DNA of 64,000 bases. Source: Roseimicrobium sp. ORNL1. GTDB taxonomy: Bacteria > Verrucomicrobiota > Verrucomicrobiia > Verrucomicrobiales > Verrucomicrobiaceae. The stretch is from contig NZ_CP049143.1 in assembly GCF_011044495.1 (NCBI RefSeq), positions 5,642,001 through 5,706,000 of the forward strand. The letters run 5' to 3'. Shown piece by piece: positions 10,386 to 13,413 of the stretch; the stretch's first letter is position 1, and every line of letters starts with the position of its first letter. The translations under genes were made by a program, and so were the position numbers. A model generated the notes under the pieces. The model saw nothing but the letters and a program-made list of their open reading frames with translations, made no database searches and was not told where the DNA came from.

Positions 10386-11138
10386 TCACGTGGCAAGCGC
10401 TGCCGGACGCGCGCCCCACAGATGCTGGGATCCGCCAAGCCTCCTGAGGAAACGTTCACCCGTCTTGAACGTCATGGCAGCGGCCTCCCACGGGCTCAGT
10501 CCCAAGGCACGAAAGCAATCCCGGTGATCCCACGCCACCGCCACGGCAGTGACCCGCTGGAAGATGCGAAACTGCGCCCGCCAGAGCCAGCGTCGCCACG
10601 CAGGCATGGCATCAAGCCGCTCTCGCAGAAACTCCGTGTGAAATGCAATGTGCCGCATCTCATCCGAGAGAATCTTGTGGCAGACACCGCGCAGCGCGGT
10701 GTCACCGCATTTCCGGTACATGACGCCGTAGTACACCTCCGCTATCAGCTCGGCGATGAGCAGGATCTGGATGTTGAATTCGACCCCGAAGTGGTTGCGC
10801 AGCCAGCGGAAGATGGAGTTACTCCACTGTTTTTCCAGGCACACCCCTCCCAGATAGGTTACCGCCTTCTCCAACAGGCGGGCGTGGTACTGCTCCTCCG
10901 CGATGAAGAGCCCTACTGCTTCTTCATAGCCCGCCAGCCGATTCGCGCTCACCACGTGCCGCACATATTTCAGGAGCCGTGTGCCTCCTCCGCTTTCGCC
11001 CAGCTGAAAGATGGCCAGCGATTCCCTCAGCGGCTCGAGCACGGATGCTGGAAGGGCGCAACCCCCAGGCGGCAGAGCGGGTTCGACAAAACGGTTCTGA
11101 TTGGCGCGGAAATACTGGATCCAGAGATGGGTATTCAT
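10386..11138 (-). CDS. ferritin-like di-iron protein
   Basis: A 250-residue, largely helical protein with two ExxH-type motifs, EEQYH (about residues 80-84) and DEMRH (about 163-167), plus an intervening helix ELIAEVYY. Together they can supply the carboxylate and histidine ligands of a di-nuclear iron site in a ferritin-like four-helix bundle. That fits di-iron oxygenases or hydroxylases of the AurF or membrane-associated type, but the substrate is unknown. It lies 53 bases downstream of ispH on the same strand, so it is likely in the ispH transcript and may sit under the palindrome at 12137-12159. An isoprenoid-lipid substrate is a guess from this context only. Confidence 0.65.
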   Translation of the reverse strand: MNTHLWIQYFRANQNRFVEPALPPGGCALPASVLEPLRESLAIFQLGESGGGTRLLKYVRHVVSANRLAGYEEAVGLFIAEEQYHARLLEKAVTYLGGVCLEKQWSNSIFRWLRNHFGVEFNIQILLIAELIAEVYYGVMYRKCGDTALRGVCHKILSDEMRHIAFHTEFLRERLDAMPAWRRWLWRAQFRIFQRVTAVAVAWDHRDCFRALGLSPWEAAAMTFKTGERFLRRLGGSQHLWGARPAALAT

Positions 11139-11191: not shown

Positions 11192-12094
11192 CTACTGCAC
11201 GCGGCTGGTCACCATGCTCACGAGACCCGCCAGAGCACTGCCGGACTTTTGTTCCGCGGCGAGGACCTGCAGGCGATCCATCACCGCGCGCACGGTCTCA
11301 TCCAACGTGCTGGTACCTGCGGTCACGCCCACGTGCTGTGATTTCTGAAACCACGCAGGGTCCAAGTCTTCCGCTCGCTCCACCTGGTGGGCTATGCTCC
11401 CCAGCTTTCGTGCCGATTCCACGAGCTGGCGGGTGTTGTTGCTGTTCCGTCCGCCAATCACCACCACCGTATCACACACAGCGCAGAGCTCCACGAGCGC
11501 GGTCTGCCGCTGCTTCGTCGGCTGGCACACGGTATCCACGAAGCGCACTTCAGCGCGCGGATGGCAACGCTTCAGCGCATCCACCACCTTCAGCACATGC
11601 GTGACCGGTTGGGTGGTCTGGCTGATGACGCCGAACTTTGGTCGAAAGGGGACCTCCGCAGCCTCCTCCTCTGTCAGAAGCACGATGGCCTCCGGGAAAT
11701 CCCCCACCAGACCACGCACCTCCACATGCCCTGCCTGGCCGATGACGACGGGGAAGTACCCCTCCCGCACCAGGGTGCGCAGGGCGTCATGCGCCTTGTG
11801 CACCAGCGGACAGGTGGTGTCGGTGACACGATAGCCGGCTTCTTTCCAGGCGGTACGTTGGTTGTCCGAGGCGCCATGCGCCGTGATGACCACGTCGGGA
11901 GTGGGAGCGGAGGGCGCATCGCTGAGGGTGCCCATCTGCACGCCGAGCGTGCGGAGGTGGGCATCTACCAAAGGATTGTGCACGAGCTGGCCGAGGATGG
12001 TGACCGGGGCGGCCTGTGCAGCGGAATGGGTGGCACGGAGGGCGTCGCGAACGCCGAAGCACATGCCGTGATGTTTGGCGAGATGGATGGTCAT
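11192..12094 (-). CDS. ispH: 4-hydroxy-3-methylbut-2-enyl diphosphate reductase
   Basis: A 300-residue IspH/LytB, the [4Fe-4S] enzyme that makes IPP and DMAPP in the last step of the MEP isoprenoid pathway. The three cluster cysteines are C12 (HHGMCFG), C95 (DTTCPLVHK) and C190 (DTVCQPTKQRQ). Substrate-binding residues match the family: VHNP near 39-42, TAHGAS (H73), and GHVEV (H123, E125). The open frame extends to 12208, but the ATG at 12094 gives the usual N-terminus. A perfect 10-bp-arm palindrome (12137-12159) lies 43 bases upstream and resembles the site before the membrane-protein/regulator operon, so a regulated promoter is likely. The ferritin-like gene follows. Confidence 0.95.
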   Translation of the reverse strand: MTIHLAKHHGMCFGVRDALRATHSAAQAAPVTILGQLVHNPLVDAHLRTLGVQMGTLSDAPSAPTPDVVITAHGASDNQRTAWKEAGYRVTDTTCPLVHKAHDALRTLVREGYFPVVIGQAGHVEVRGLVGDFPEAIVLLTEEEAAEVPFRPKFGVISQTTQPVTHVLKVVDALKRCHPRAEVRFVDTVCQPTKQRQTALVELCAVCDTVVVIGGRNSNNTRQLVESARKLGSIAHQVERAEDLDPAWFQKSQHVGVTAGTSTLDETVRAVMDRLQVLAAEQKSGSALAGLVSMVTSRVQ

Positions 12095-12136: not shown

Positions 12137-12159
12137 GAAACTTTGTGTGACAAAGTTTC
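12137..12159. promoter_or_regulatory. palindromic operator in front of ispH
   Basis: Perfect palindrome GAAACTTTGT, three bases, ACAAAGTTTC, in the 88-base gap between the winged-helix regulator stop and the ispH start. The core ACTTTGT-N3-ACAAAGT is identical to the core of the site at 13216-13232. It is read here as a binding site for the regulator encoded at 12183-12491. Confidence 0.65.
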
Positions 12160-12182
12160 TGGACAAATAAAAACAGGGAAAC

Positions 12183-12491
12183 TCACTTGGGACGACTTTG
12201 CTGCACAATGGCCTCCAGCACCTTCACGTAGGCACGGAAGGCACTGCTCCCCGCCCCTGTGATTTCGTACTGGGTCATGGGACGGCCGCTGTCGTTGGCG
12301 ACGGTCTTCAGCTCGCGCACATACCCTTCTTTTGTCAGGGTGCGCAGGTGGGTGATGAGATTGCCATCGCTCATGGACAGCTCGGATTTCAGTTCCTGGA
12401 AACTCCACGGACTGCGGCTCGCGAGCAGTGTCATGATGGAGAGACGGCTCTTCTCATGAATGACGCGGTCGAGCTGGGAGAAATCAATCAT
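12183..12491 (-). CDS. winged-helix transcriptional regulator (HTH_34 / MarR-like)
   Basis: A 102-residue DNA-binding protein with the hallmark sequence of the small winged-helix family often annotated HTH_34: LDRVIHEKSRLSIMTLL, then FQELKSELSMSDGNLITHL (recognition region), then EGYVRELK and a wing with TQYEITGAG. The open frame extends to 12815 but would overlap the upstream membrane-protein gene, so the ATG at 12491 is used. No sensor domain is present, so its signal may come from the partner membrane protein 65 bases upstream. Two palindromes, at 13216-13232 (own operon) and 12137-12159 (ispH), are its likely sites. Confidence 0.85.
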   Translation of the reverse strand: MIDFSQLDRVIHEKSRLSIMTLLASRSPWSFQELKSELSMSDGNLITHLRTLTKEGYVRELKTVANDSGRPMTQYEITGAGSSAFRAYVKVLEAIVQQSRPK

Positions 12492-12556
12492 CAAGCTGGA
12501 GAAGAGGGAAAGAATGCTGCGGGGTGTTGGCGGGGCCGGGACGGACGCACAGGCGG

Positions 12557-13210
12557 CTAACGTGGACTCGAGGAAGCGACCAGCTCCCGCGGCTGACTGA
12601 GGAAGACCGCGACCCCGTAGATGATGTGGAAGAGGCCAAACGTCAGCCCCATGTAGAGCGAGGCCAGCGCCACCGGGGGAGAGACCATGCCGGGCCATCC
12701 CTTCCACAGCCAGAGGACCGTGAGCACCTGTCCGGCGATCAAAAAGGCGCGAGCCAGGTGAATGATGGATCGGGGCGCAAAGCTGACGGTGCCCTGGAGC
12801 GCCAGCCCGTAGCAAAGAATCCAGACCAGGGCCGCCAATTCCATCTGCTGACGGAACGCGATAAGGCTCACCCCGAGCACACCACCGGTAAGCAGCGGCG
12901 GCACCACCGCACGCAGGGCCATGCGCAGGCCATCCGTGATGAACGGCTGCCCCTTTTCCTGGGATTCACGCATGAGCAGGAAGAGATTCGCCACGCCGGA
13001 GACACACAGCACACCAATCCACGCCGCGAGGAAGACCTGAGGCGAGGGAGGTCTCATTATTCCCCAAGCCGCCACCGCCAATCCAATCACTCCCCCGCAC
13101 AGGGCTGCCGTGGCCGAAACCGCCCGGTAGATGCTGGCCCGCTCCATGAGCGTGCGGATGATGCGGAGATGCTCCAATGCCGTGTCGTGAGGTAGGTCGG
13201 ATGCGGCCAT
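12557..13210 (-). CDS. six-helix membrane protein paired with winged-helix regulator
   Basis: A 217-residue integral membrane protein with about six hydrophobic helices (near residues 30-52, 58-80, 102-122, 124-140, 150-170 and 180-205) and a short cytoplasmic N-terminus (LEHLRIIRTLMERAS). No transporter or enzyme motif is recognised. The ATG at 13210 lies 5 bases from a 17-base palindrome at 13216-13232, so the gene is probably repressed or autoregulated by the regulator encoded next in the same operon. Pairs of a small HTH_34 protein and a multi-helix membrane protein recur in this kind of bacterium, but their job is not known to me. Confidence 0.7.
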   Translation of the reverse strand: MAASDLPHDTALEHLRIIRTLMERASIYRAVSATAALCGGVIGLAVAAWGIMRPPSPQVFLAAWIGVLCVSGVANLFLLMRESQEKGQPFITDGLRMALRAVVPPLLTGGVLGVSLIAFRQQMELAALVWILCYGLALQGTVSFAPRSIIHLARAFLIAGQVLTVLWLWKGWPGMVSPPVALASLYMGLTFGLFHIIYGVAVFLSQPRELVASSSPR

Positions 13211-13215
13211 GGCTC

Positions 13216-13232
13216 ACTTTGTATTACAAAGT
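13216..13232. promoter_or_regulatory. palindromic operator of the membrane-protein/regulator operon
   Basis: Perfect palindrome ACTTTGTA, T, TACAAAGT, starting 5 bases upstream of the ATG at 13210. The core ACTTTGT-N3-ACAAAGT is the same as in the ispH site (12137-12159). Its position over the translation-initiation region suggests negative autoregulation. Confidence 0.65.
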
Positions 13233-13413
13233 TAAGTTTGCGTCAATGGTGTTTTTTGCACGATGACACCTCCCCATCCCCCGGACAGGCACGTCGGAGG
13301 GCGTGCATGTCTGCAACGATCGCATGGTGGACTGGCCACATTCCAGCTTCGTCATCTCATTTCCGTTGCCAGCCATAGCGCCCCACGTAGCATTCCCGCC
13401 CTCCGCTTACTCC

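Follow-up and report, generated by a model that had tools for sequence, protein, structure and literature searches.

A winged-helix regulator and membrane protein pair with conserved palindromes before an accessory ispH gene in Verrucomicrobiota, and its link to HMG-CoA synthase genes in apparent mevalonate-pathway relatives

Introduction

The CarR membrane anti-sigma factor and the CarQ sigma factor of Myxococcus form a local regulator pair with a membrane partner. The locus described here follows the same outline, in that a cytoplasmic DNA-binding factor and a co-encoded membrane protein are found together with isoprenoid-related genes; the likeness is one of outline, and CarQ is a sigma factor whereas the regulator described here (REG) is a winged-helix protein. 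Accessory copies of ispH, the gene for the enzyme that ends the MEP pathway, occur in mycobacteria (lytB1/lytB2), with a second IspH beside the housekeeping one, as at our locus. Unlike lytB1/lytB2, however, the second ispH considered here is tied to a regulator-membrane protein module and its putative operator across much of the phylum. PH1061 (1ub9), Rv3488 and the HTH_34/PadR-like regulators resemble REG in size, in fold and in having a palindromic site next to their own operon, but none was found described for isoprenoid genes, and REG is instead encoded with a multi-helix membrane protein (MEM) that has no known family. CreD (PF06123) neighbours MEM-REG in one lineage; the CreBC-CreD envelope system (PMC4689548) is a two-component system and not a winged-helix/membrane protein pair, and no CreD is present at the locus analysed here.

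Bacterial transcriptional control of isoprenoid precursor synthesis seems poorly known. A first-pass annotation had stated that no regulator of this kind was described for ispH, and a literature search for PF13601 and for regulators of ispH or mvaS (HMG-CoA synthase), which covered few subscription journals, likewise returned no match. The passages looked up in papers on bacterial isoprenoid pathways mention no such regulator, and a review from 2026 on the diversity of these pathways in bacteria uses neither "transcription factor" nor "repressor".

Results

Two matching palindromes flank the MEM-REG pair

The window is a 64,000-nt stretch of the genome of Roseimicrobium sp. ORNL1 (contig NZ_CP049143.1, positions 5,642,001 to 5,706,000). 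All genes of the locus lie on its minus strand, in the order operator A, MEM, REG, operator B, ispH and a diiron gene (Table 1).

Table 1. Features of the MEM-REG-ispH locus, in window coordinates
Feature	Position	Strand	Remarks
Candidate -35 box TTGACG of the MEM promoter	13241..13246	-	tentative, read from the sequence
Operator A (putative), ACTTTGTATTACAAAGT	13216..13232	.	5 nt upstream of the MEM start codon (13210)
MEM, membrane protein of 217 aa with six long predicted helices	12557..13210	-	no Pfam or NCBIfam match
REG, 102-aa HTH_34 winged-helix regulator	12183..12491	-	PF13601, 69.2 bits (cut-off 27)
Operator B (putative), GAAACTTTGTGTGACAAAGTTTC	12137..12159	.	between REG and ispH
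ispH (accessory copy)	11192..12094	-	TIGR00216, 231.3 bits (cut-off 187.85)
AurF-like diiron gene	10386..11138	-	PF11583, 31.8 bits (cut-off 29.6); 53 nt after ispH

The first-pass annotation had reported two palindromes with the common core ACTTTGT-N3-ACAAAGT, and both were recovered with the same positions and sequence. The one before ispH, GAAACTTTGT-N3-ACAAAGTTTC (12137-12159), is a perfect 10-bp inverted repeat and lies 42 nt from the ispH start codon (12094); together the two sites flank MEM-REG at a distance of 1.08 kb. The palindrome was not scattered over the genome, as would be expected of a repeat placed without regard to genes: the core was present in exactly two copies in the 7,957,748-bp genome, both of them flanking MEM-REG, and the next-best matches had two mismatches each. 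By a first-order Markov estimate from the window, about 0.008 exact copies were expected in the genome, and the probability of two or more was about 4e-5. As had been proposed, the palindromes have the look of operators for the HTH_34 regulator encoded between them, a reading supported by this two-copy exclusivity and by the conservation described below; they are called operators A and B throughout.

An inverted repeat as perfect as that before ispH could also act in RNA, as a hairpin of an attenuator, a terminator or a processing signal. We therefore consider how the half-sites vary among 107 sites of the family, which were collected at three or fewer mismatches anywhere in the arms, part of the core conservation being a selection effect. 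In this set CTTTG/CAAAG was nearly invariant, and the CTTT and AAAG positions were practically invariant. Outside these positions the half-sites varied independently, as in the 26 C..A pairs of positions 7/11 and the 14 A..C pairs of positions 1/17, and pairing at positions 7/11 was broken in 37 of the 107 sites. Since such independent variation is that of half-sites for a DNA-bound dimer, an operator is favoured over a hairpin. No intrinsic terminator was found at the window locus, and the position of site A would give almost no leader RNA; the hairpin reading was rejected on the half-site statistics and is extremely improbable.

A strict sigma-70 promoter scan returned nothing at either window site. 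If the TTGACG box of Table 1 serves MEM, a 17-nt spacer would place a tentative candidate -10 box (TACAAA, 13218-13223) inside operator A.

Proteins encoded at the locus

Profile scores bore out both the HTH_34 regulator between the palindromes and the identity of ispH (Table 1), and a distant REG still matched PF13601 at 61.5 bits. The structural model of REG (pLDDT 86.8) had 1ub9 as its best PDB match, with a TM-score of about 0.78, indicating a winged-helix fold; it also resembled the PadR-type Rv3488, and REG was closest in both sequence and fold to PH1061 (1ub9). Assignment to the PadR family was rejected although the fold is similar (PF03551, 23 bits, below the cut-off of 27), as was assignment to the ArsR/SmtB metalloregulators (NF033788, 28.8 bits against a cut-off of 55). 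REG contains no cysteine, nor is any cysteine column conserved. The genome's other HTH_34 match (G000:C1:4245886) has 151 aa, and no membrane-protein ORF was recognised beside it.

For the fold of MEM, no Foldseek match was obtained at E <= 0.001; in a second structural comparison, unrelated helical membrane proteins scored up to Z = 8.0, a value that for a helical bundle may reflect only a common arrangement. The window IspH retains the three cluster cysteines (C12, C95 and C190). Downstream of it, the gene first described as ferritin-like is present, but its product is a marginal AurF-type diiron protein, and an ortholog scored 24.7 bits with PF11583, below the cut-off of 29.6. The diiron gene is probably co-transcribed with ispH.

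The module and its operators are conserved in relatives

REG was found in 54 of the 68 genomes of the family, and a profile search of 388 genomes of the phylum recovered relatives in 68. Forty family loci were read in detail (one of them begins inside REG, at a contig end), and showed the order MEM-REG-ispH, usually followed by the diiron gene, with operators both ahead of MEM and in the gap between REG and ispH. Operator B was kept in nearly all of them; operator A was kept before MEM wherever a family locus retains the region, and in most loci of the phylum. In genus g9 there are usually two operators 33-35 bp apart before MEM, and in one genome (G033) MEM, REG and ispH are all degenerating together.

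Among the relatives that bear names are Verrucomicrobium sp. BvORR034 and BvORR106, Brevifollis gellanilyticus, Prosthecobacter and Phragmitibacter, which places the window in or near the Verrucomicrobiaceae. A second collection comprised 80 named Verrucomicrobiota loci. Here ispH followed REG directly in 74 loci, 66 of which carried operators on both sides, and an operator stood between REG and ispH in 73 of the 80; the palindrome upstream of ispH, on which the first-pass annotation had rested its regulon, is thus widely conserved in relatives. Some genomes have a DUF4153 membrane protein after the module (L206 5030-6715, L207 3203-4738, L313 and L317), the gene in L206 being directly behind operator B. 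Extra sites at L112, L113, L380 and L384 were set aside as chance-like, since they fall within ORFs or are not close to a start codon.

The operator-linked ispH is a second copy

Nearly all genomes with REG carry ispH twice, the short gene being next to REG and the long one (~420 aa) elsewhere. Genomes without REG have the long ispH alone. The short ispH was present in 53 of the 54 genomes with REG and in none of the 14 without it, an association whose p-value is only indicative, the species being related. In the genome of the window the longer ispH is located at G000:C1:6490221, and no operator was found in the stretch read around the long ispH of this genome and of two others (L342, L343 and L358). 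The earlier proposal that ispH belongs to the regulon of the regulator thus held as regards the operator link, given by the conserved sites, but the gene concerned is an accessory second copy and not the only ispH of the genome. The single ispH of other MEP-pathway users (L344-L350) had no operator either, and MEM-REG therefore does not control ispH everywhere.

Genera g13/g14 of family f2, for which Luteolibacter-like is our presumed name, have a divergent paralog as their second ispH, and in three of these genomes (G245, G313 and G369) this ispH is far from REG with operators directly upstream of its start codon. Operator-bearing paralogs of this group (L199-L202, L296, L306, L311, L329 and L339-L341) have lost most or all of the three Fe-S cysteines; because of this loss they are probably not reductases, and it is possible that they are pseudoenzymes kept under REG control. 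Among the window-type paralogs in the alignment, all 109 keep the three cysteines and nearly all other catalytic positions checked are kept as well. Four genomes (G305, G313, G316 and G245) contain HMG-CoA reductase (PF00368) and two ispH genes, with no match for HMG-CoA synthase.

The module precedes HMG-CoA synthase in apparent mevalonate users

At 13 loci of other classes the gene after MEM-REG encodes HMG-CoA synthase, which catalyses the first committed step of the mevalonate pathway. Pfam confirmed this identity in the three loci tested, and about half of the 13 have an operator between the pair and this gene. All 13 genomes appear to be mevalonate users, since they have no ispH and do have HMG-CoA reductase; in 9 of them the module-linked HMG-CoA synthase is the only one found. 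The HMG-CoA reductase loci that were read had no operator.

In the joined tree of REG and MEM, the HMG-CoA synthase-linked modules group as a single clade with support 0.89; a split with support 1.0 separates them from the ispH-linked modules, which fall together. The two links look like two ancient associations and therefore represent few independent events, that to HMG-CoA synthase being one clade. The module is older and broader than the ispH link of the window. Because the same module precedes HMG-CoA synthase in mevalonate-pathway relatives, its link appears to be to isoprenoid precursor supply in general.

The loss of cluster cysteines from the Luteolibacter-like paralogs under the same operator, and the dispensability of the cassette, which some relatives lack, would also suit a regulated IspH paralog whose main role is sensory or regulatory, for instance one binding HMBPP or IPP, rather than an extra enzyme. 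We consider this rather unlikely, given the intact cysteines and nearly intact catalytic positions of the 109 window-type paralogs and the presence, in mevalonate users, of a true pathway enzyme family at the same place, often as the sole HMG-CoA synthase. An extra enzyme remains our preferred reading for the window-type IspH.

Further targets and the sign of control

A second target with operators was seen in several relatives, namely YA, a membrane protein without annotation or Pfam family. Directly before its start codon, two operators 22 bp apart lie over the -35/-10 spacer and the start region of a TTGACA...TATAA promoter, a placement that, read from sequence, is the classical layout of a repressor. 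YA and its neighbour form a membrane protein pair with tandem operators and a near-consensus promoter at L117 (1501-2341), L120, L121, L139 and L158-L167. Some module loci adjoin YA with a B12-dependent radical SAM gene, and in G036 (an 87% complete assembly) the YA operators are kept and REG was not found. At distant loci a TTGCAA box overlaps with the operator, and a TATnnT-like box follows downstream.

In a third lineage the genes downstream of MEM-REG are CreD or membrane proteins of no assigned family; at L222, L226, L235 and L360, CreD (PF06123) lies downstream of the pair or has an operator copy at its start. In Luteolibacter-like genomes, SLBB/Poly_export-type genes also have operator copies 23-38 nt upstream (L372, L376 and L377), the product at L377 having been checked by Pfam.

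These positions bear on what the site before ispH is for. Two sites flanking the pair, 1.08 kb apart in the window and at a similar spacing in relatives, might serve MEM-REG alone, with autoregulation through DNA looping and with ispH as a passenger. This explanation is very unlikely, as operators stand directly upstream of ispH in the three genomes in which it is far from REG, others precede the YA pair elsewhere in the genome, and HMG-CoA synthase replaces ispH in mevalonate users. Control of ispH itself through operator B is the reading that we retain.

Because no strict promoter was found at the window sites, the sign of control there rests on the relatives, by analogy with which REG would be a repressor. 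REG could instead be an activator or a dual regulator acting on the same operators and switching on the second ispH or HMG-CoA synthase upon a signal from MEM; lack of a strict promoter is common for activated promoters, and the operator of distant loci covers the -35 region, where some activators bind. The tandem sites at YA, however, cover the spacer and start region of a near-consensus promoter, and operator A comes within 5 nt of the MEM start codon, downstream of any position usual for an activator. Activation is thus unlikely, and repression is assumed in the model below.

Discussion

We favour, with moderate confidence, a model in which REG as autorepressor and MEM as its membrane sensor or antagonist would tune isoprenoid precursor supply along with envelope genes. 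We infer binding of REG to the sites, repression rather than activation, the sensor role of MEM, its signal and the direction of flux; the sites and their conservation, the co-occurrence with a second ispH, the HMG-CoA synthase link and the promoter overlap at YA come from computation. A REG dimer would occupy the palindromes, repressing its own MEM-REG operon at operator A and, at operator B, a second promoter that drives the accessory ispH and the diiron gene. MEM, made from the same transcript as REG, would sense the state of the membrane and release or sequester REG. The trigger might be a shortage of an isoprenoid lipid (e.g., the undecaprenyl carrier) or envelope damage, upon which extra IspH would yield more IPP and DMAPP. 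In mevalonate-pathway relatives the same module would control HMG-CoA synthase, and in other lineages it is found beside envelope membrane genes such as YA and CreD.

A membrane signal acting through MEM is plausible. Isoprenoid shortage is not its sole reading, because the downstream genes of the third lineage are CreD or other membrane proteins; the YA, CreD and polysaccharide-export neighbours or targets would suit such a shortage or a broader envelope damage.

A small winged-helix autoregulator with a membrane partner is a known arrangement; for the phylum-wide link to isoprenoid precursor synthesis, no description turned up in the literature covered. We tentatively propose, with less assurance than the model itself, that a membrane-sensor/repressor pair not described before may set isoprenoid supply across the phylum through one step of whichever pathway is in use, the accessory IspH in the MEP pathway or HMG-CoA synthase in the mevalonate pathway. 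In eukaryotes, HMG-CoA synthase and reductase are under the control of sterols, and the bacterial pair would, if the proposal is true, be a functional parallel. The operator has a sequence distinctive enough for predicting further targets, such as the YA pair and the polysaccharide export genes, and the module also bears on why some bacteria keep a second IspH. With one module linked to both pathways within one phylum, it becomes possible to ask directly which cue bacteria follow in setting their supply of lipid carriers, quinones and hopanoids.
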